A stretch of DNA of 64,000 nucleotides from NCBI RefSeq assembly GCF_040954645.1, contig NC_092804.1:148003108-148067107 (forward strand). The letters run 5' to 3'. This document shows, one piece after another, positions 594 to 44,070 of this stretch (the stretch's first letter is position 1; each line of letters opens with the position of its first letter). Both the position numbers and the translations under genes were made by a program. Source of the DNA: Diabrotica undecimpunctata. Its lineage: Eukaryota; Arthropoda; Insecta; Coleoptera; Chrysomelidae. The notes under the pieces were generated by a model. It ran no database searches and was not told the DNA's origin. It saw only the letters and a list, made by a program, of their open reading frames with translations.

Positions 594-3380
594 AATTTTC
601 CACTTTTTGAGTTACGAGCGCAAAACAATAAAACATAATGATATCTTCCCCAGGAAAGAATCGTATCTCAGTAAACGTAGTTATGCAACCAATATTACGT
701 GTAAGAGTTTTATAGTATCTCCGATTTATGAAAAACAACCGTAGAAAATCATCGTATCTTGAGTTACAATAGTCTTTGTTGTTATCTGAGGCGATAGCAT
801 AGGTATCGTAACATGAGTTACTACGGTATTCTGCGTTAGTTTAAGGTTATGTTCAAAAGTTTAGCTTTGTTATAATTGCCATAATGTGTTCCAGAAGTGA
901 GTTATTATTGGAATTAGCTGAGAAAGCGTATAAAAACACTGAAACGGATATTTCTTATCGTTCTTTTGAAGGTAAATTTATAATAAACTTTATTTAAAAT
1001 AATAACAGCAAAGTAAAAACCTACTTATTTTTTAAGGTAAACATATTGCTGAAAGTATTGTAGAAGAAAGCAAATACAAAAAGGCGAATGAAGATCCTGG
1101 TGAGCACGAGACTGATATTAATCCTGAATGTTCTACAGGTTGGTTTAAATTCCGCATGAAAAAATATTACGTAGGCATTTACCTCATTTTTGTTTAATTT
1201 TAGTAAGCTTAGAAGAGAATAAAGCCAATAGGAATGAAAATGAAATAATTGAGAAGGAAAGCGATGAGGAACCATTTCATGCAGACTCTGATACTGACCC
1301 AGATTACATTCCGACAGAAGACAAAAACATCCCTGAAGTAATAATTGAACCTAATAAGAATATAACTAAAGCAACCACAAATAGAAAGAGAAGAAGCAGA
1401 GGCAATATAGAGAGAGTAAGTAGGAAAAGAATTAGAGACGTTAGTAAGTGGGCGGATGAAAAATCTAAAACAAGTCTAAACCTGAGACTTGAACATGAAA
1501 ATCGAAAAGCTATTCAAATTAAAGGAAGACAGATGGGTGCACCATGCGCAAACACATGTAGACTAAAATGTGCTACCAAAATAGCTAAAGAAGATAGAGA
1601 CCTTTTTTTCTGAAACCCTTTCTTGAAACCCTTAACGTTTCAGAAACTTGGATCACTACAGCATTAAGGAAACTGAAAGATGGTGGATCATTAGAGGAAG
1701 ATAAACGTGGAAAGCACACTAACAGACCACATAAACTATCACCAGAACTTATAGACAACGTAAAAAATCACATAAATCAGTTTCCTGTAGTACCTTCCCA
1801 TTATACCCGTAAGAATACGATGAAGATGTACCTTGAAGAAGGGCTAACTATCCAGAAAATGTACCGATTGTACAACGAGCATTGCGAAAAAAATAACATC
1901 ACTACAGCTGCCACGTCACGCCAGTATAGAGATATTTTCAATGAACAGTTCAATATTGGGTTCTTTAAACCAAAAAAGGATCAGTGTACTGTTTGTTCTG
2001 TTTTTAATAGGGCTAGTGATGCTGAAAAAGCAAAATTGCTCGAACAATATGAGTCCCATATGAAAAACAAAGAAGTTATCAGAAACTTAAAATACATAGA
2101 CAAACAGCTTGCACTAGATGATAAGAGCTTGTGTGTGGCTTGCTTTGACCTTCAAAAGGTTTTAGCTACCCCTTTGTCTAACATAAGTGATTTTTACTAC
2201 AAAAGCAAATACTCTACATATAACTTTACAGTTTATGATGTTGGAAATAATCAGGGTTACTGCTATGTATGGCACGAGCAGGTGGCTAAAAGAGGTCCTA
2301 ATGAAATTGCCAGTTGCCTCTGGAAATTTTTAGATCTCAAGGCACAACAAAGTGTTAAAACGATAATATTCCACTCAGACAACTGTGGGGGACAAAATAG
2401 GAATCGTTTAGTGTTTTCGATGTTTGCTTTTGCTGCTGCTCATTTTCATATTGATATTATTCACAGATTTCTGGAAAAAGGCCACACTCAGAACGAGGGT
2501 GACAGTATGCATGCTGTTATCGAAAATGCAAAGAAAAGGCAATCGGTTGTATATGTGCCAGAACAGTGGGTTACATTAATTAGAATGGCTAAAACTACAG
2601 GAAGAGTTTATGATGTTACGGAAATGTCCCAAGATAATTTTTTTAATTTTAAAAAACTGACTGATACCGAGAATTGGAAACTTGACAACGAAAAGAAATC
2701 AATAAAAGTTAGCAAAATACGAGAAATAAAATTTTCGCATGAACACCAAAATTCTATAATGTTTAAATACGAATTCGATGATGGTTTTAGAGGTTGTGAC
2801 ATAAAATTAAATCGAAAATGCAGAGGACGGCCTTCCACTACTATCAAATTTCCACCGAAACTGTATGATGCACCATTACCAATTGAAGAAAAAAAGCTAA
2901 AAGGATTACTGTGGCTGTGTAATACTGGCAAAATACCCACAATGTACCATGGATTTTATAAAAATCTTAATTCAAAGAGTTATGTACCTCCTAAAGTCGA
3001 GCTCGAAGTTGATTCAGTTGAGAGCGAAGAAGAGTCGGATGAGGAAAATTGAATTAAAATATAAATCTGCAAATTATATCTGTAGCTTCTTCAAAATGTA
3101 GCATTTTATATAAATAAAGTTAAGAAACAAATAATTCTGGTATTTATTACTTTAAAAATATCTCCATCGAAAACTATAGCAACTCATTCAAAAGTCACTT
3201 ATGACCATTTCTGTCTTAAATCTGTTTTACCCTTGTAAGATCATTATTAAAAGTATCACTTAATGCTATAAAAACATCCATTTAATAGATTAATGAATTT
3301 TGGTAACAGTGTAAATACATTTTTATAATTATCTCAATTACACAAAAAATGAGTTACTACAGTCTTCGTTGGACCAGTCG
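563..3380 (+). mobile_element. Sola-like DNA transposon with 35 bp TIRs
   Basis: Positions 559-593 and 3350-3384 are perfect inverted copies (outer end ATATCGACTGGTCCAACGAA on the left). The outermost ATAT is its own reverse complement, so it can be read as a 4 bp target-site duplication (559-562 and 3381-3384) with the element at 563-3380. The interior carries one multi-exon transposase-like gene on the plus strand. Sola elements make 4 bp duplications, which fits; the superfamily name is inference from that and from the protein type. Confidence 0.7.
884..3052 (+). pseudogene. Sola-like (DUF7869-type) transposase, frameshifted
   Basis: Proposed exons are 884-971, 1037-1138 and 1204 onward, joined by plausible GT..AG introns that keep phase. 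Exon 3 starts with an acidic, lysine/arginine-rich region (DSDTDPDYIPTED, then RKRIRD). At about 1612 the frame breaks with signs of a small deletion, then resumes and is uninterrupted to 3052. The intact 410-residue part holds a CTVCSVF knuckle near residue 55, the FHSDNCGGQNRNR block near 185 and EKGHTQNEGDS near 220. These blocks typify a protein family common in insects and cnidarians and thought to be transposon-derived. The D and E residues in them are candidate catalytic residues. An acidic tail ends the protein. A diverged second copy lies at 45.4-46.4 kb. Confidence 0.65.
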
Positions 3381-5816: not shown

Positions 5817-6195
5817 TTAGTTATGTGTTGAAATTTCTGTTTGATCTGTCGTTATGACTTGTGAGACACCCAAAATAAGTCTATTTAGAAGGTTCGCTGG
5901 AAATGAATTCTCTAACATGATCGTTTTAATTTTTTTAAGACCGGCTGTTCTATATGCAGGATGTGACAAAGTTATAATCCTACTTTTCGTAAACGAATGT
6001 ACTGAGAAGTAATTAATAAACCTATTGCTACATATGGGTTTTCTATACCATTCTGTTTTTAGAACGTTGTTTGAATCACAATGTAATATCATATCTAGAA
6101 ATGGTATGCAGTTGTTGTTTTCTAATTCTACTGTAAATTGCAAGTCTGGACAGTAACTGTTAAATATGTGTAGTGTATCCATTATTATGTCTTTA
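5817..6195 (-). pseudogene. Penelope-like element RT fragment
   Basis: The 121-residue minus frame contains NNNCIPFLDMILHCDSN, then TEWYRKPICSNRFINY. This is the signature of the C-terminal part of Penelope-like reverse transcriptases (a phrase of the type PFLD, then YRKPT). It compares well with the PLE at 42.1-44.4 kb, which has NKLNFLDMTISRN and YRKPTQTD. No GIY-YIG domain or other RT motifs were found next to it, so it is a short relic. Confidence 0.6.
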
Positions 6196-9800: not shown

Positions 9801-11174
9801 ATAAAGTAGAGTAGAGTATTTATTTAACTACATAACAGATACAAATATTGTTTGTAGCAAGTCAAAAAAAAACATACTTAGTATTAAAAAAGGAATATAA
9901 AACGTAACTTAAATATATACAAACAAGAACACATATTAAACAGAAAAACATTTTTATGGCAAAGTTACGGTAAGCAGTTCAGTGGATGTTCTGCAATGAG
10001 TCATATATTCTTCTGAGTAGTAACAACAATGTTTTAGAAGATATTTTTTTATAACTTTATCGAAACTATTACAGCTTAGCTGTTTTATACTTTTTGGTAA
10101 AATATTGTAATAGTTATAATTAAGATTATTTTTTTCTGAAAGACTTAATCTACAGCGATTTGTTCGTAGGTAGTGACAGTTTCGCGAATTATGAAGATGG
10201 ACATAAGACTGCTTTATTAAATGGGCACGTTTTCTATTTATTTCAGTTAGAACTTAAAATATCAACAGAGTAGGTAGCGGCATAATTTTGAATTTGATAA
10301 AGAAAGGTCGGCAGTGTTCTAGATAACTAATCCCTGCTAAAATCCTGACAGCTTTCTTTTGCATTCTAAAAATTTGAAGTGCATTTGTTGAATTACCCTA
10401 TATAATTACACCATAGTTTAGGTGAGAGTGGAATAAAGAAATATATGTAATTTTTAATGTTTCAAAGTTGACAACCCTTGCTAGTCGACGAATAACAAAT
10501 AATGAACTTGATAACTTTTTCTTAAGTTGTGAGATATGAGCTGACCAGTTGAGTCGATTATCTATGGTTATTTCCAATAGTTTAACAGTCTCTTTGATAA
10601 CTAAATCATTGTGTAAATTACTTGCAGATATAAGTCAATGTTGCGTTTTATCAAAGTTAAGTTTTAGTTTGTTGGCAGCAAACCATAAGCTAGATTTAGT
10701 AGAAACTTCCTCATGAAATATTTTTAAATCATCAATTATTTTTTCGTGATATAAAGTATGCCGTATCATCTGCGAATGGTATGGTTTTGTACGGAGATAT
10801 GAATTTAGGAAGATCGTTGACATAAATAATAAACAAAAGAGGTATTAAGACCGAACCTTGTGGGACTCCATGTTTTATGGATATAAAATCGGAGAGATGA
10901 CCTTTGGACACTGCTACATATATAAGAAGTTATAAGCTTAAAAGGGATACCTCTGATTCTATAGTAATTTAATTTGTGGAGCAAAATGTCGCGTGAAATG
11001 CAATCAAAAGCCTTCGACAAGTCGCCAAGAAAATTGCTGTGCGATTGCAACATTCAAGCCCCTCAATAACCTCGCTCACAACATTAAATACGGCGTTCGT
11101 AGTAGAACGAGCACTTCTGAATCCAAATTGTGAATTGCTAAAGTGATTATTTGACTTAAAATAAGAACACAATT
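9800..11174 (-). pseudogene. Jockey/CR1-like LINE, 3' half (RT palm, thumb, tail)
   Basis: On the minus strand it continues the RT that begins right of the ribozyme array. Blocks seen are SNSQFGFRSARSTTNAVFNV, DLSKAFDCISRDILLHKL (motif A), ANKLKLNFDKTQH, ITIDNRLNWSAHI, KITYISLFHSHLNYG and FRMQKKAVRIL. All are typical of jockey/CR1-clade elements. The YADD box region is damaged, with frame changes around 10780-10860. The 3' end lies near 9805, with a short GTAGAGTAGAGT repeat as tail. The frame joins in register with the 5' half once the array at 11175-13886 is removed. Confidence 0.8.
11163..11174 (+). repeat. Target-site duplication, left of ribozyme array
   Basis: AAGAACACAATT here matches AAGAATACAATT at 13884-13895 at 11 of 12 positions. 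The first three bases may belong to the array end, so the secure duplication is about 9 bp. Confidence 0.7.
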
Positions 11175-11284
11175 TGTGTAAAAGATATAATCTTTTAGCG
11201 AAAGCCGCTATCGCTTTATTAAATTAAATGGCCAAATATATGGCCTAGGAGGACAAATTCGTTAAACTTCCCGTGCTCGAATCG

Positions 11285-11349
11285 GTATCAATAAAGTGTT
11301 ATGATCATTTCGGCCTAGCCCAGCCTCATCAGACACTTTGGACTGATAC
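11285..11349 (-). ncRNA. Type I hammerhead ribozyme, unit 1
   Basis: In minus-strand order: GUAUCA, loop GUCC, AAAGUGU (helix I 5' side), CUGAUGA core, GGC..GCC helix II, GAA, AUGAUCAU (self-complementary helix III), A17 cleavage residue, ACACUUU, AU, UGAUAC (helix I 3' side). All invariant core bases are present. The helix I internal loop base (GUCC) differs from most other units (GCCC). Confidence 0.9.
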
Positions 11350-11603
11350 AACTTCAAACTCGGAAAGTCCAACGAATGTCTCCCAAAACTTCACTACAAC
11401 AGTAGTTAGCTACAAAGGCGCCACCTGCTTTGGCGGCCGTGAACGAAAACGATATGATAATATCGTTTTCTGTATCCTCTGCGCTATGCGAAATGTGTAA
11501 AAGATATAATCTTTTAGCGAAAGCCGCTATCGCTTTATTAAATTAAATGCCCAAATATATGGCCTAGGAGGACAAATTCATTAAACTTCCCGTGCTCGAA
11601 TCG

Positions 11604-11668
11604 GTATCAATAAAGTGTTATGATCATTTCGGCCTAGCCCAGCCTCATCAGACACTTTGGGCTGATAC
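11604..11668 (-). ncRNA. Type I hammerhead ribozyme, unit 2
   Basis: The motif is the same as in unit 1, with GCCC in the helix I internal loop. Core CUGAUGA, GAAA and the UA cleavage dinucleotide are intact. The unit also carries a GAACAAAAAC variant downstream that recurs only in the last inverted unit. Confidence 0.9.
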
Positions 11669-11922
11669 AAATTCAAACTCGGAAAGTCCAACGAATGTCT
11701 CCCAAAACTTCACTACAACAGTAGTTAGCTACAAAGGCGCCACCTGCTTTGGCGGCCGTGAACAAAAACGATATGATAATATCGTTTTCTGTATCCTCTG
11801 CGCTATGCGAAATGTGTAAAAGATATAATCTTTTAGCGAAAGCCGCTATCGCTTTATTAAATTAAATGCCCAAATATATGGCCTAGGAGGACAAATTCGT
11901 TAAACTTTCCGTGCTCGAATCG

Positions 11923-11987
11923 GTATCAATAAAGTGTTATGATCATTTCGGCCTAGCCCAGCCTCATCAGACACTTTGGGCTGATAC
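11923..11987 (-). ncRNA. Type I hammerhead ribozyme, unit 3
   Basis: The core and all three helices are intact, with the GCCC internal loop. Confidence 0.9.
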
Positions 11988-12241
11988 AAATTCAAACTCG
12001 GAAAGTCCAACGAATGTCTCCCAAAACTTCACTACAACAGTAGTTAGCTACAAAGGCGCCACCTGCTTTGGCGGCCGTGAACGAAAACGATATGATAATA
12101 TCGTTTTCTGTATCCTCTGCGCTATGCGAAATGTGTAAAAGATATAATCTTTTAGCGAAAGCCGCTATCGCTTTATTAAATTAAATGCCCAAATATATGG
12201 CCTAGGAGGACAAACTCGTTAAACTTCCCGTGCTCGAATCG

Positions 12242-12306
12242 GTATCAATAAAGTGTTATGATCATTTCGGCCTAGCCCAGCCTCATCAGACACTTTGGAC
12301 TGATAC
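12242..12306 (-). ncRNA. Type I hammerhead ribozyme, unit 4
   Basis: The core is intact. It shares the GUCC internal-loop variant with unit 1, three units away. Confidence 0.9.
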
Positions 12307-12560
12307 AACTTCAAACTCGGAAAGTCCAACGAATGTCTCCCAAAACTTCACTACAACAGTAGTTAGCTACAAAGGCGCCACCTGCTTTGGCGGCCGTGAA
12401 CGAAAACGATATGATAATATCGTTTTCTGTATCCTCTGCGCTATGCGAAATGTGTAAAAGATATAATCTTTTAGCGAAAGCCGCTATCGCTTTATTAAAT
12501 TAAATGCCCAAATATATGGCCTAGGAGGACAAATTCGTTAAACTTCCCGTGCTCGAATCG

Positions 12561-12625
12561 GTATCAATAAAGTGTTATGATCATTTCGGCCTAGCCCAGC
12601 CTCATCAGACACTTTGGGCTGATAC
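12561..12625 (-). ncRNA. Type I hammerhead ribozyme, unit 5
   Basis: The core and helices are intact, with the GCCC internal loop. Confidence 0.9.
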
Positions 12626-12879
12626 AAATTCAAACTCGGAAAGTCCAACGAATGTCTCCCAAAACTTCACTACAACAGTAGTTAGCTACAAAGGCGCCAC
12701 CTGCTTTGGCGGCCGTGAACGAAAACGATATGATAATATCGTTTTCTGTATCCTCTGCGCTATGCGAAATGTGTAAAAGATATAATCTTTTAGCGAAAGC
12801 CGCTATCGCTTTATTAAATTAAATGCCCAAATATATGGCCTAGGAGGACAAATTCGTTAAACTTCCCGTGCTCGAATCG

Positions 12880-12944
12880 GTATCAATAAAGTGTTATGAT
12901 CATTTCGGCCTAGCCCAGCCTCATCAGACACTTTGGGCTGATAC
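12880..12944 (-). ncRNA. Type I hammerhead ribozyme, unit 6 (truncated unit)
   Basis: The ribozyme is complete, but the unit ends about 10 bp beyond it, where the inverted half begins (about 12955). Confidence 0.9.
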
Positions 12945-13109
12945 AAATTCAAACTGTTTTACACATTTCGCATAGCGCAGAGGATACAGAAAACGATATT
13001 ATCATATCGTTTTCGTTCACGGCCGCCAAAGCAGGTGGCGCCTTTGTAGCTAACTACTGTTGTAGTGAAGTTTTGGGAGACATTCGTTGGACTTTCCGAG
13101 TTTGAATTT

Positions 13110-13174
13110 GTATCAGCCCAAAGTGTCTGATGAGGCTGGGCTAGGCCGAAATGATCGTAACACTTTATTGATAC
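13110..13174 (+). ncRNA. Type I hammerhead ribozyme, inverted unit 1
   Basis: Core CUGAUGA is at 13127-13133, helix II at 13134-13147, GAA at 13148-13150 and A17 at 13159. Helix III reads AUGAUCGU, so one A-U pair becomes a G-U wobble compared with the other copies. Folding is still possible. Confidence 0.88.
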
Positions 13175-13427
13175 CGATTCGAGCACGGGAAGTTTAACGA
13201 ATTTGTCCTCCTAGGCCATATATTTGGCCATTTAATTTAATAAAGCGATAGCGGCTTTCGCTAAAAGATTATATCTTTTACACATTTCGCATAGCGCAGA
13301 GGATACAGAAAACGATATTATCATATCGTTTTCGTCACGGCCGCCAAAGCAGGTGGCGCCTTTGTAGCTAACTACTGTTGTAGTGAAGTTTTAGGAGACA
13401 TTCGTTGGACTTTCCGAGTTTGAATTT

Positions 13428-13492
13428 GTATCAGCCCAAAGTGTCTGATGAGGCTGGGCTAGGCCGAAATGATCATAACACTTTATTGATAC
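13428..13492 (+). ncRNA. Type I hammerhead ribozyme, inverted unit 2
   Basis: All core bases are intact and helix III is the standard AUGAUCAU. The unit around it has small changes, including an AT-rich expansion near 13545. Confidence 0.9.
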
Positions 13493-13750
13493 CGATTCGA
13501 GCACGGGAAGTTTAACGAATTTGTCCTCCTAGGCCATATTTATATTTGGCCATATAATTTAATAAAGCGATAGCGGCTTTCGCTAAAAGATTATATCTTT
13601 TACACATTTCGCATAGCGCAGAGGATACAGAAAACGATATTATCATATCGTTTTTGTTCACGGCCGCCAAAGCAGGTGGCGCCTTTGTAGCTAACTACTG
13701 TTGTAGTGAAGTTTTGGGAGACATTCGTTGGACTTTCCGAGTTTGAATTT

Positions 13751-13815
13751 GTATCAGCCCAAAGTGTCTGATGAGGCTGGGCTAGGCCGAAATGATCATA
13801 ACACTTTATTGATAC
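13751..13815 (+). ncRNA. Type I hammerhead ribozyme, inverted unit 3
   Basis: The ribozyme is complete. The unit is cut about 70 bp later, where the LINE resumes. Confidence 0.9.
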
Positions 13816-13883
13816 CGATTCGAGCACGGGAAGTTTAACGAATTTGTCCTCCTAGGCCATATATTTGGCCATTTAATTTAATA

Positions 13884-13895
13884 AAGAATACAATT
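13884..13895 (+). repeat. Target-site duplication, right of ribozyme array
   Basis: AAGAATACAATT pairs with 11163-11174 (one mismatch). The LINE reading frame resumes immediately to the right. Confidence 0.7.
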
Positions 13896-19218: not shown

Positions 19219-20440
19219 GCAAAAAAACGCAAAAAAATCGATTTACCAAGACTCTGTACACCGTAAAAAAATTTTAAACAAAAATGTTTATAAGCATTTT
19301 TGTGTAGAATGAATCGTTCTTTTAGAAACAACGCTTGAAGCGACCGTCGATTGTGCATATCAGTTACGCGCGTGAAATCAATGTTCAATAAAATTTGTAT
19401 CATCGGAACGGTAAAAATTCGACATCTTTTAATACAAATGTCCTATTGACAAAAATCAAGATGCGTTTTAATGGAAAAGAGTGCGGCTTTCGTATGCAGT
19501 TTTTGTATTTTGCCGAGAATAAACTCAGTTTTTATTAAGGTAAATAAATTAACGTGGCGCGATTTTTGCCAGTTTTTACGATTCTCGTGAGATTAATAAA
19601 ATTGATCACTTTCATTGACCAGTTGTAGTAAAATTTCCATTTTTAGAGATTAATCTTTAAAACCTATGACATGAAATTTCAATTTTGAGTTGTGATAACA
19701 AATATGAGGCATTTGAAATATAAACAAAAAACGCAGAACTTATTGTTTTTCATTACAAACAATCATACGTCACGGAAAATGCATTTAAGAAGACTGTTTT
19801 GGATGTAGTTTATTGCAAAAGTTTTGTTCTTTTGAAAATCCTACTAGTGTAATAAAGAAAAATAGTTTTAAATGCTTTAGATCGTTTGTTGTGTAAAAGT
19901 TTAAATCCAGCGTTTTTTAAGCACATTTCAAATGCCTCACATTTGTTGCCAAAACTCAAAACTAAAATTTCATGCTATAGTTTTTAAAGATTAGGTTCTA
20001 CTAATCGAAACTTCATAGTGGCCAGTCAATGAAAAGGATAGATTGTATTGATCTTGTGAGAATCATAAAAAATGTCAAAAATCGCGCCACGTTTACTTAT
20101 TTAACACCTGTATAAAATCTGAGTCTCTTTGCGGCAAAATACAAAAACTGTATACCAAAGCCGACCTCTTTACCTCTAAAACGCATCTTGATTTTTTTCA
20201 ATAAGTCACTTAAATCAAAAGATATCGAATTTTTACTGTCGAGCTGATAAAAATTTTATTCAACATTGATTGCGCGCGCGTAACTGACATGCAAAATCGA
20301 TGGTCGCTTCAAGCGTTATTTCTAAGAGAACTGATCATTCTACACAAAAAATGTTTATAAACAGTTTTGTTTAGAATTATCTCAACTACATTTTTTTCTA
20401 CGGTGTACAGATCCTTGTTAAATCAATTTTTTGTGTTTAT
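19219..20440. mobile_element. Foldback element with ~550-600 bp inverted arms
   Basis: The left arm (about 19219-19800) and right arm (about 19880-20440) are diverged inverted copies. Matching phrases are TTTACCAAGACTCTGTACAC with GTGTACAGATCCTTGTTAAA, and CAACGCTTGAAGCGACC with GGTCGCTTCAAGCGTTA. AACGTGGCGCGATTTTTGCC pairs with a similar CGCGCCACG phrase, and CATTTGAAAT pairs with ATTTCAAATG at the centre. No coding capacity was seen. It is a non-autonomous DNA element of unknown superfamily. Confidence 0.7.
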
Positions 20441-21125: not shown

Positions 21126-21278
21126 CAGGAAAATATTCTTAGATATTTTATGCACTTATACTATGCCACAAAGTTTTATTGGTTCAAGCAAAGCTTGCTC
21201 ATCAAAAATAATATAATATACTATAATATAATATAAATAAAATACTCAAAACCAACATTATCTTTATTTTAACAAAAT

Positions 21279-21966
21279 ATACAGGGATGAGTGCCTTAAG
21301 AACCGGCAAAATAACGCAAAAGATAGAAAACATAATACGTTGTGAAATAAAAAGAGATGAAAGTAGTAGAGGTGAGAAATTATCGATATTAACCTATAAT
21401 TTACTTTACATTACATTAGAATTATCGAAAAATTCCCACCTTTAGACGTTAGCTTATGAGCTGGTTGACTTCAGTCATAGTAATACGTACCACGTAATGT
21501 AAGTACAAACAGTTTAAGTAGGAGTATTTTTTTTATCCAAAATTAAAGTATTGATCAATAATAAACTATGATTTGAGACGTCGCATACACTCTTCTCAAT
21601 ACAGAATTATCATAGCTTGTTATTCTGTATTCGTCAACACAGAATTAATTATCAAATTACTACTAATTAAACTGTTTACTAACATTTGCTTTATTGCCTT
21701 CAATCAGTTTTTACTTTATGCGAAATTTAAAAAATGTAAATGTTCGACGTCATACTTATAATATTATGACTGAAGTCAACTAGCTCATAAGCTAACGTCT
21801 AAAGGTGGGAAACTATCGATAGTCCTAATGTAATTTAATGTAAATTAGCGGTTTCTATCGATAATTTCCCACCTCTACTACTTTCATCTCTTTTTATTTC
21901 ACAACGTGTTATGTTTTCTATCTTTTGCGTTATTTTGCCGGTTCTTAAGGCACTCATCACTGTATA
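21279..21966. mobile_element. Foldback MITE with ~200 bp inverted arms
   Basis: The left arm (21279-21482) and right arm (21762-21966) are near-identical inverted copies. The outer ends read ATACAGGGATGAGTGCC, and the inner ends carry TTAGACGTTAGCTTATGAGC. The ~280 bp middle has no coding potential. It lies in the intron just after the 20931-21119 exon. Flanking ATA/TA is compatible with a short target duplication. Confidence 0.8.
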
Positions 21967-24308
21967 TTACCTTGTGTGTGTGTAGCTTAATATATCGTGT
22001 AATACTTAGAGCTTATAGCACCTATTTCAGTGTAAAATTATGTTTACCATCCAAAAGTAGCCTAATATTTTTACCAACATTTTAAAATATTCAAAAGGCA
22101 ACTTTTGTGTTATGTTAATTTGGTCATTATCCCCTTATATGTTAATGATACATATTTGTACTTATGGTTGATTTCCGTAACTTAATACTCGTAGATTGTT
22201 TAAAATAAGCGAAATCTCTTTTGGAATGTCATTGTAGCTCTCAGTATGACTAACACTATTTTTTCTGAAAATGACAAAATGGTAAAAATCGATACGAGCG
22301 TTTATTCGTGATCTTACGTTTATAATATTCTAGCTGTTGCTTTCTGCACATACGATAACCTTTATTTAATATATAAAGACATCAAAAAGGGAGAAGATTA
22401 TAAATGTTCAATCTAGAACTCGATGGTTTCTCCTTTTCGCAGTGGTTATGTATTACTACCACAAAAAGATAACAAGCAAGTAGACTATATAAAACTCTAT
22501 CGAGAGACAAGTAAAATCAAAAGACAAATATACATAAATGTACGTACATTGGAATATAATAAAATATAAAAAGCTGCAAATTTAAATATTATGTGATACG
22601 AAACCGATACGACAACCAATATTGAAACGGGTTTACAAAAGGTAAACGAATTTCCGTAAAAACAAAGCTGCCTTAAAAACTAAATATTACGTGACGAGTT
22701 AAGGATATTTATATCACACAAACCAAACCGCCCGTCTACACAAGAAATTTTGAGTAGGTATGCTTAAATATGATACAATATGAAAGAACAATGACTTTAA
22801 CAACTGATCGCTACTTAAATAAAATACAAAGAAATATAATGATTTTATCATACACACCGTTCAATTATTATAATAATGATGTTAAACAAAAATGCAATCG
22901 AAAGCAAAATAATTAAATTATACTAAATGCAATTTAAAGGTAATACCTATAAACAAATGTTAATAACAATTAGCAACAGAGACATAAATATACTATAAAA
23001 TTTATAATATTCAAACGAAAGTAAAATGATCAACATAAAGTTCAATTAAAAGTTTCAAATCGCGACACAATATGAAATAATAACATCAAGTAAACGTACT
23101 TGATCTATAACAGTAACAAGATATGGTGTAATGTACTGTACCCTAATGAAATGATAGCAGCAACCGCTATCGAAAAGGACGTCTTCAACGACATACAGGA
23201 ACCAAAAAAATATTGATGATGGAGCAGCCTCTACCCCTACTAGATGGAACGCCTGATAGTGACTGAGTGCTTGATGGTGACTGAGTGCTTGTTCGTTGGG
23301 CCAAGAGTTGTTTTGTATAAGCTGACGTAAGGTGTGGGCGATAATTACCCTGAGATCTGCACTTTTAGCGAAAGACATTAATTTTTTTCATCGTTCTTTG
23401 TTAACATACAATGTCTGAAAGAACAGTCTTTTGTCTGCAACAATATATTACAACCGTTTATTGTTCTCTAGCGTCTGTGTTTTTGTATGCGGAATCTTGG
23501 TTAAATATACGGGAAGAATCAAAACTAAGACTCTCTTAGTCTCTTAATAATTTAACAAGGTTTATATAAAGTTGTGAAACTGTAACAGTAGCAGTATTAA
23601 ATTGGAGTAAAAGTATGCGTTATAATGTATACTAAAGCTTACTAATTTCCGTTTTTCTGCAATAGTTTCTTGATTATTCGTTTGAAATATCTTTTAAAGG
23701 TTAGACTTGTTTTAGTTTTATAATGGTGTAAATAATTGATCTCAATAGTTGTTGTCAAGGACTCATACCAATTTAGAATTTTAAAATAAAATGATTTCTC
23801 AATAGGAAGACTGGTATATATTGCTACTAGATAAGATTTTTTTGTTTAAAATGTAGTATCTATCTATATATAAAAGGCTATGATGACAACTTACACTGTT
23901 TGTCCAGTAAACTAACGACGCCATCTAAGAAAGAAATCTGAACTACCACCATTTGACACTTCAATCATATTTTGTTCTTGAAACGATACATTTAATAAAT
24001 AATACGGTATTAATTAAATATTAATATAATAAATAATTAATTTTTATAATATTTTTAAGGTAGAATTTAATACAAAATAATTTGAACAAAGAAATCTGAA
24101 CTACCGACATTTCAACCTATGAGTCAATTATAATTTTATTATTTATTAATGTAATTAATAAATAATATTATTAATATTTGTAAAGCACGATTTATACAAA
24201 ATAATAAAATAAGAAATAAAATTTCTGTAGTTGGTTGTAAACCATAAATCACAAGTTTAGAAGATATATAATTAAAAAGTCCTTTGGATCTACATAACAA
24301 CAGAACGT
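21967..24308. other. Long AT-rich stretch without recognised genes
   Basis: A 107-codon minus frame at 23055-23378 has no family features and includes a short repeated phrase (GACTGAGTGCTTG, twice). TCTATCTATATATAAAAGGC near 23866 recalls the 5' end of insect Helitrons but no Helitron 3' hairpin was located. The rest is featureless. Confidence 0.35.
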
Positions 24309-34068: not shown

Positions 34069-34093
34069 GATTATATATATATATATATATATA

Positions 34094-34933
34094 CTAAGGT
34101 ACACTCGAAGAGTGGTGGGTTTTTCGGTCAAAGTGGAGAAATAAAAGACAAAGAAGGTGGCTACTTCATCTATTTATTAAAGATGTTTCGCTTTCTGCTC
34201 AGAAAACATCATCAGTTCATCTAAAAAGTACAATATGAAACCAAACATCCATAGAGAAGTTAAAAAAAGTGTGTTACCTTACAAAGACATGTAGCAGTCA
34301 ATAATGTTAAAAATATGAAAAAGCTTACGAAACTGGACATTTAGAGTTAAAGTTGTATAAAACAATTAACTGAAACTAGGTATAGTTTGCAATTTAACAA
34401 AATTAGCACAGCAAAAGAACATGTGATAAACATACATGTATATAAAAAAGTTATTATAAAAACTTAAGTAAAAAACATTAAGGTTTATTTTATAGTGTAA
34501 AGAACTAGAAAGATCATAAGAATGCACTTCCAACTATTTATTTATAATCAATTAGATTTTAATTTTAACTTTAGGTAACATTATTGAATTATTTAAGATT
34601 AATATAGTAATAAAGATAAAAATGAAGTTACCAGTCTTAAGCTTACTAAATCTCGCAGGTAAATGAATGAACAGGTTTAACACCCACGCAAACAATGTAA
34701 ATAGATATGTCCTTGAGGTCAAAATGACAGAACAGCAAGGCAAAATACCAACCTCTAATATAATAGAATAATAGAGCAGTACATTTATAGAATGTGATAA
34801 ATTTGGTTGACAACTTGTCATTAAAAAGCCAAAAAATGAAAGGAAAATGTGGTTAAGATCACCATTTACCCTCCATTGTCTTTTATTTCTCCAGTTTGAC
34901 CGAAAAACCCACCACTCTTCGAGTGTACCTTAG
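34094..34933. mobile_element. Foldback MITE with 56 bp inverted ends
   Basis: 34094-34149 and 34878-34933 are inverted copies with one mismatch, starting CTAAGGTACACTCGAAGAGT. The ~730 bp interior is non-coding. Confidence 0.8.
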
Positions 34934-34966
34934 TTTATTTTGGATTGACACTCGTACTACTTTCCC

Positions 34967-43113: not shown

Positions 43114-43497
43114 CTAAACAGCCGAGCTGGGTCCACTACGAGGTGAAGCTGCAATAAAGTTTTTAAAAATAGGTTTAAATTTAGTACAATTTAAATTAAT
43201 TTGAGTATTGAGACAGTGAGAGTTTCCATTTGTTTCCTTTGTGATCTCCAAATCTTCCAATAAATCCAACTCCAAATAGTTTTTCCTTCTATTAATGTCA
43301 TGTAAAATAGACGAACCAGTGTTGATGTTAAAATTGTGTTTACTGGATAATAAGTGTTGACCAAAACTTGAAGAGTTTGGTCTTTTCAAATGTTCTGAAA
43401 CTCTAGTGGATAACTTTCTAATGGTTCTACCTACATAAGAGGCATCACAATCATTACACTTTAATTTATAAATACCACTTTTGTCGAGTGTGTTCAT
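43114..43497 (-). pseudogene. PLE GIY-YIG endonuclease domain
   Basis: The 127-residue frame has SGIYKLKCNDCDASYVGRTI (GIY, then YVG, with the linked CxxC), RKLSTRVSEHL (catalytic R and E region) and FGQHLLSSKHNF (His pair of the zinc-binding site typical of Penelope endonucleases). It would nick target DNA for priming. The domain itself is open, but it is cut off from a complete RT. Confidence 0.88.
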
Positions 43498-43668
43498 CCT
43501 ATCTTTGGTGTTGATTAAAAAGGAACCTAAAGTGTGACTTGAAGAAAATTTTGATGTTTCAATTGTAGAAGTAAAAAGTTTAGATATTTTATTGGAAATA
43601 TTGCTAATATAAGTAAAGGAGAAATATCTGATGTTGTTTGAAGCATTAGGTTGAAGAAAACATTGTGA

Positions 43669-44070
43669 TTAATATGCAAGCTTTTCTGCAATTTTGAGTT
43701 TAGCTCTATTTAGAAGCTTATAAATAATATTGGGATCATAACCATTATTGAAAGCAATTTGCGTAAGACTATTAAGTTCTAAATTAAAGTTATCATTAGA
43801 AAGTGGAAATTTGAGTAACCTATGAATATAACTATTCAAAGCAGTCATTTTATGTTGGGTTGGATGATTAGATGTTTCATGTATAACATGATCTGTTTGG
43901 GTAGGTTTTCTGTAAATATTGTACTCTAGAGAATCTTTATTACGAGATATAGTCATATCCAAGAAGTTCAACTTATTGCCAGATTCTGGTTCCAATGTAA
44001 AAGAGATGTTAGGATGGAGGTTATTATGCATAATTGTTGAGTTACTTGTTTGTTGTTTTTGCAAAATCAA
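43669..44070 (-). pseudogene. PLE reverse transcriptase, C-terminal part
   Basis: Key blocks are ISFTLEPESGNKLNFLDMTI, YNIYRKPTQTDHVIHETSNH, HPTQHKMTALNSYIHRLLKF and NNGYDPNIIYKLLNRAKLK. This FLD, then YRKPTQTD, then thumb-like order is diagnostic of Penelope-like RTs. The YADD-containing palm upstream is absent from this copy. Confidence 0.85.

Follow-up and report, generated by a model that had tools for sequence, protein, structure and literature searches.

Head-to-head, two-ended insertions of a hammerhead retrozyme in Diabrotica undecimpunctata and their likeness to Penelope-like elements

A retrozyme array in two inverted arms

The analysed DNA is a stretch of 64,000 nucleotides from Diabrotica undecimpunctata (contig NC_092804.1, positions 148,003,108 to 148,067,107), referred to here as the window. 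Repeat analysis placed the limits of an array at 11175–13886, exactly those given in an earlier note, which had described a nine-copy array of hammerhead ribozymes. The nine hammerhead cores were recovered; the topology was not, since the array consists of two inverted arms instead of one tandem. Six cores are on the minus strand (11300–12927) and three on the plus strand (13127–13800), and the arms meet head-to-head at 12956 when the units are aligned on the hammerhead. The left arm has 5.6 units with a period of 319, and the right arm has 2.9 units with periods of 318 and 323. The inversion of the arms is the most informative feature of the retrozyme family. The features of the insertion are listed below, with the strand of each arm given as RNA sense.

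11166..11174, target-site duplication, left copy: AACACAATT, 9 bp, 8/9 identical to 13887–13895
11175..12955, minus, left arm of 5.6 retrozyme units; its outer end is the long 'A' end at unit position 123–125
11175..11219, minus, 'tail' segment (unit about 81–123), which terminates the A arm and is absent from the B end
11300..11332, minus, hammerhead copy 1 (core to UA cleavage site), from the structural scan
11619..11651, minus, hammerhead copy 2, from the structural scan
11938..11970, minus, hammerhead copy 3, from the structural scan
12257..12289, minus, hammerhead copy 4, from the structural scan
12576..12608, minus, hammerhead copy 5, from the structural scan
12895..12927, minus, hammerhead copy 6, from the structural scan
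12955..12957, head-to-head inner junction, unit position 259 against 117
12957..13886, plus, right arm of 2.9 units; its outer end is the short 'B' end at unit position 86, ...AATTTAATAAAG
13127..13159, plus, hammerhead copy 7, with one A to G in helix III, U-G pairing still possible
13445..13477, plus, hammerhead copy 8, from the structural scan
13768..13800, plus, hammerhead copy 9, from the structural scan
13887..13895, target-site duplication, right copy: AATACAATT

The tail segment contains the stem-loop AAAAGAU-UAU-AUCUUUU. The host sequence of the array is a minus-strand LINE, and its frame runs unbroken through the site once the flanks are brought together around a single copy of the duplication (...YRPISIVSTFGKVIEKVIK*QLYSYFKSNNHFSNSQFGFRSARSTTN...), bar one stop within the flank. 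The 9-bp duplication and the continuous LINE frame across the site indicate that the array is an insertion and not a local satellite.

Each unit contains CUGAUGA, a 4-bp helix II, GAAA, the palindromic helix III AUGAUCAU and UA at the cleavage site, and helix I is 7 bp long, with an internal loop and then more pairable sequence beyond it. The loose pattern CTGATGA...GAAA matches the window at 13 places, where chance would give 1.18 on average, and nine of the 13 are the array cores. When a structural scan was set to a helix I of 7 bp, a helix II of 4 bp, a palindromic helix III of 4 bp and UA at the cleavage site, 9/9 array copies and no other match in the window were found, which agrees with the claim of the earlier note that every unit of about 319 bp carries a complete type I hammerhead core. 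The Rfam search with the hammerhead type I model, proposed in the same note as a check, reported no match in the window even at E ≤ 10; the retrozyme sequence lies below Rfam detection. The layout of the Rfam Hammerhead_1 consensus equals that of the retrozyme hammerhead, including a helix III without a loop.

In the predicted lowest-energy fold of one hammerhead segment, helices I and II are kept and helix III is replaced by a competing pairing. Two paired segments were predicted at -50.2 kcal/mol versus 2 × -20.0 (-40.0) kcal/mol apart, where the pairing is one extended duplex and not specifically a two-hammerhead fold. Action as a dimer through the palindromic helix III is plausible from these models, and the hammerhead of amphibian retrozymes is described to act as a dimer (PMC7229834).

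Other hammerhead-like and repeated sequences were also observed. A looser structural scan added one unrelated motif in the window (34186–34215, minus), which is located in a short insert (34089–34938) with 69-bp inverted ends at 34089–34157 and 34870–34938. This insert has (TA)n on one side and similar pieces in loci L026 and L073, and it is probably a different Penelope family. A second hammerhead family scored above the Rfam Hammerhead_1 cut-off in at least 16 places among 74 scored of 202998 candidates. Locus L074 (G000 C8:112368200-112370600), the one locus of this second family that was read, has two direct copies of 169 bp (700–868 and 1086–1254), 386 bp apart. It lends no support to the insertion model described below, since it is without head-to-head arms and its inverted match is imperfect and 38 bp long. 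Elsewhere in the window, there are two inverted-repeat pairs (19270–19764 with 19880–20378, 81%; 21276–21485 with 21759–21968, 92% identity) and a 410-codon open frame with a Pfam DUF7869 match (1820–3052).

The family in the genome, its ends and its target sites

The exact 30-nt core was found 371 times in the 1.74-Gb genome (170 plus, 201 minus), while the reversed-pattern control gave 0, so the other genomic copies that the earlier note had proposed to look for do exist. The exact core was absent from viral contigs. The unit is 319 bp long with a GC content of 41.7%, and its longest ATG frame is 30 codons. Structure, unit size, GC content, the lack of an ORF, dispersal and target duplications all bear out the assignment as an animal retrozyme: it is a metazoan non-LTR retrozyme, a new family of a known kind, and it is non-autonomous, without a protein of its own. 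About 0.7% variants per base across the units read, together with the 371 exact cores, fit the recent spread suggested earlier. The other suggestion, selection on the RNA, was not upheld, because variation in the core (6 of 1579 base-cells) is not significantly different from that elsewhere in the unit (219 of 31170; p = 0.16). The youth of the copies is enough to explain why their cores are intact, and selection need not be invoked.

The head-to-head layout was also examined by core orientation. The first 100 listed of the 371 cores form 42 clusters, of which 19 have both strands. Among these 100 cores, all strand switches within 3 kb (19/19) run minus-then-plus, which is head-to-head, and the same holds for 21/21 when the limit is 7 kb. 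The remaining clusters have cores on one strand only, and 11 of these have more than one core.

A total of 36 loci were read, namely the window, 20 loci (L039–L058) that are the best by score of the 39 non-window loci in the best-scoring list, and the first 15 loci in map order on contig C1, two of which belong to the remaining 19 of the 39. L039, L052 and L053 were dropped since their flanks show the same insertion as L040, leaving 33 independent loci. These four places on C11 are one retrozyme insertion by their common flanks, vary in unit number, and one is without the other arm; the same flanks with differing arms indicate that the locus was duplicated and then changed. Among the 33 independent loci, 26 are clearly two-armed and six are single-armed, and one, C1_25986959, stays outside the two-armed count with an A arm of only about 18 nt.

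In the two-armed loci, the A end is at unit position 119–129 in 26/26, with 21/26 at 121 or 123, and the B end is at 77–94 in 25/26; the exception is L057, where it is at 59 and adjoins a (TA)n flank. Every two-armed locus (26/26) has one A and one B end, never the same kind of end on both sides. The A end is longer by a tail of about 43 nt that is absent at the B end. The inner junctions behave in another way, as all 25 scored are distinct (25/25); L040, whose B arm is fragmented, is outside this count.

Flank repeats of at least 10 bp were found in 13/16 non-microsatellite loci versus 0/240 mismatched pairs (longest 8), where the lengths include overlap with the element ends and microsatellite loci are set aside. 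One of the three loci that fail this exact-match test is that of the window, whose 9-bp repeat has one mismatch. With L039 included, one control match appeared in 272 pairs, and it was gone once L039 was dropped. A (TA)n left flank was present in 17/33 loci, whereas (TA)n makes up 0.55% of the window, which shows a preference for (TA)n targets.

Insertion route and its alternatives

Two minus-strand fragments of the window (43114–44070 and 5817–6182) are Penelope-like, being recognised by reverse-transcriptase-like and GIY-YIG-like residues; Pfam gave no match on them. A genome search with 43114–43497 started from 21196 first-look candidates and scored 150 places, where the longest frames reach 836 codons, and among 149 of these places all strand switches within 8 kb (35/35) run minus-then-plus. 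The second query, 5817–6182 (150 places scored of 11395), gave four minus-then-plus and one plus-then-minus within 8 kb. Three Penelope loci were examined (C4:110377786-110382328, L065 and L066), and 3/3 have one short and one long end, so the layout of the retrozyme is also that of these Penelope copies. Their ends lie 54 and 86 nt past the cleavage site of the minimal hammerhead, 32 nt apart, as compared with about 80 and 123 for the retrozyme, and flank repeats of 9–11 bp were seen by eye. When the hammerhead-to-tail segment of the retrozyme was compared with 15 Penelope records, some of them without a tail, the scores were within those of shuffles and no partner emerged by sequence. A Penelope array was also observed at G000 C1:162405951-162437727. 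It has six minus and four plus copies with exactly 3373-bp spacing within each arm, 9/10 copies have 836-codon frames, and its head-to-head, multi-turn layout is like that of the retrozyme.

In work with a purified Penelope protein from the anole, both strands of AT-rich DNA were cut and extended, and reverse transcription began at two internal RNA sites bounding a 'tail' (Frangieh 2024, PMC11167929). Given the architecture of the retrozyme loci, it is likely that an enzyme of the Penelope type uses both ends of a break in the target to copy a single retrozyme RNA, which is probably circular; the RNA circle, the Penelope enzyme and the cleavage in the cell are the parts that we infer. The type I hammerheads, possibly in dimeric form via the palindromic helix III AUGAUCAU, would first cut the array transcript, and the resulting 319-nt RNAs would be closed into circles. 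A Penelope-type protein with reverse transcriptase and GIY-YIG nuclease would then cut both strands of AT-rich DNA, often (TA)n, with the two cuts about 9–12 bp apart. Both target 3' ends would prime one RNA at two start sites about 43 nt apart that flank the stem-loop, at unit positions about 80 and 123. Each cDNA would run 0.1 to 6 turns round the RNA, past the cleavage site, and the two cDNAs would be joined wherever each ends. Two-site priming and cDNA joining would by themselves account for arms that stand head-to-head, for fixed ends of unequal length, for junctions that differ between loci and for the target duplications. The six single-armed loci among 33 count against this model. Fold prediction for the circle places the A site in the unpaired ACACAUUU just 3' of the stem-loop, and the B site in an unpaired AU-rich strand just 5' of it.

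An RNA circle is probably the template, as suggested by the multi-turn arms of uniform units. Among the loci read, variants private to one locus occur in all covering units of both arms in four loci (L056, C1_76771232, C1_80747297 and C1_123722643). A 2-nt deletion, which gives a 317-nt unit, is mixed with the long form in none of the 31 independent loci with coverage; it is present in five loci, only two of which have more than one informative unit. Shared variants were found in both arms in 26 cases and in one arm only in 20, a fraction reached by 0/2000 shuffles, but most of this concordance comes from a single site that is nearly fixed, and the case for a common template is therefore made by the private variants and the 2-nt deletion. 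Partial variants speak against one template, namely 267G and 277T in 2/9 units of the window, eight variants in part of one arm in L055, and one in 2/3 units in L056.

A linear multimer of uniform units would also do as the template. The insertion route would then be unchanged, but the RNA copied would be a multimeric linear transcript read through an array already in place, which we consider doubtful. The arms of up to six units run past the cleavage site uncut, the arrays are young and nearly uniform, and unprocessed RNA is described as the main in vitro substrate for the Penelope protein (Frangieh 2024, PMC11167929), all of which would suit such a template. In contrast, circles are reported as about half or more of the monomer retrozyme RNA in three animals (PMC7229834). 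The fixation of private variants across all units of both arms in four loci, and the single spacing of 317 or 319 per locus, with the window's right arm (318 and 323) as the exception, also argue against a linear multimer.

It is improbable that a LINE, not Penelope, moves the retrozyme by ordinary twin priming. In L1 twin priming the first priming site is the RNA 3' end and the second is not fixed, whereas both start sites of the retrozyme are internal and fixed, about 43 nt from each other, and each arm invariably has its own (26/26). No poly-A or other tract was found at the insert ends beyond the AT sequence of the target itself. What speaks for a LINE is that LINE fragments are present within the window and that L1 twin priming (5' inversion) is alike in having two target ends prime one RNA, with inverted arms and target duplications as the product (PMC2837659). 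The tail signature, however, is described as unique to Penelope elements (PMC11167929).

Movement by a transposase is very improbable; the retrozyme would then be a fold-back DNA transposon whose long inverted repeats consist of ribozyme-bearing units. The long inverted arms and the 9-bp target duplication of the array do resemble those of fold-back elements. But the two ends of the retrozyme differ in sequence (unequal in 26/26), its B ends scatter (77–94 in 25/26), the 25/25 distinct inner junctions leave no common internal structure, and half of the targets are (TA)n. Hardly credible at all is that recombination turned round an ordinary satellite array or that the arms are an error of assembly: tandem repeats readily suffer either, and two left-arm units three apart have two variants in common, which suggests a later DNA-level duplication, but the same architecture with flanking duplications stands at independent sites on many contigs, and a fold-back artefact would mirror the flanks too.

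Copying by a Penelope-type enzyme from both ends of a break leads to a broader proposal, which we hold to be evenly poised between right and wrong. Animal retrozymes would be parasites of Penelope, with two subunits of one complex, one at each end of the staggered break, chasing round one hammerhead-made circle from a pair of start sites that lie about 43 nt from each other. Such circles may also serve to amplify Penelope itself, whose 10-copy head-to-head array on C1 keeps a spacing of exactly 3373 bp within either arm; hammerhead, tail and inverted repeats would then belong to one rolling-circle, twin-primed pathway. If the circle is the template, this would help to explain the hammerheads of Penelope and its tandem and inverted copies. 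The fixed A and B ends with head-to-head arms are a fingerprint that can be searched in any retrozyme genome, by which the question of the mover becomes testable, and they give exact RNA positions for an assay with purified Penelope protein.

Relation to known retrozymes and Penelope-like elements

The family is like the metazoan non-LTR retrozymes described by Cervera and de la Pena 2020 (PMC7229834) in having a type I hammerhead per unit, tandem units of about 170–400 nt (319 here), low GC content (41.7% here), no ORF, many copies, target duplications over 4 bp and Penelope in the genome. A very short palindromic helix III and units of about 330 nt are likewise found in the amphibian satellite hammerhead HHR_Amex1 (PMC7229834). 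As candidate movers, that paper names LINEs or PLEs, with Penelope the stronger. It differs from the present case in that the parts of PMC7229834 covered describe tandem repeats and make no mention of head-to-head arms or of two fixed ends. In the open-licence papers searched, no inverted retrozymes and no Penelope-type ends in retrozymes were found. The W elements of schistosomes have target duplications and internal inverted repeats, and the term 'head-to-head' does not occur in the sections of PMC8490949 covered. As far as this partly covered open-licence literature shows, the inverted, two-ended insertion pattern is not described for retrozymes.

The closest likeness is with Penelope-like elements. 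Rotifer Penelope elements have an inverted pLTR, a 31-bp tail at one end, target duplications of 8–10 bp and mostly head-to-head copies (Arkhipova 2013, PMC3846280). The retrozyme shares with Penelope-like elements the head-to-head inverted copies, one end longer by a tail of 30–40 bp, short target duplications, AT-rich targets and a hammerhead upstream of the start sites. It is unlike them in being without an ORF (no ATG frame above 30 codons), so it does not encode a reverse transcriptase and GIY-YIG nuclease, whereas Penelope encodes its own protein (frames up to 836 codons here) and its hammerhead is a minimal one. In the assay of Frangieh 2024, as far as PMC11167929 was covered, the start site is equal on both strands, in contrast to the strict one A and one B end of the retrozyme. 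In its predicted fold, the retrozyme stem-loop flanked by the A and B sites recalls the AC-rich stem-loop of the anole Penelope.
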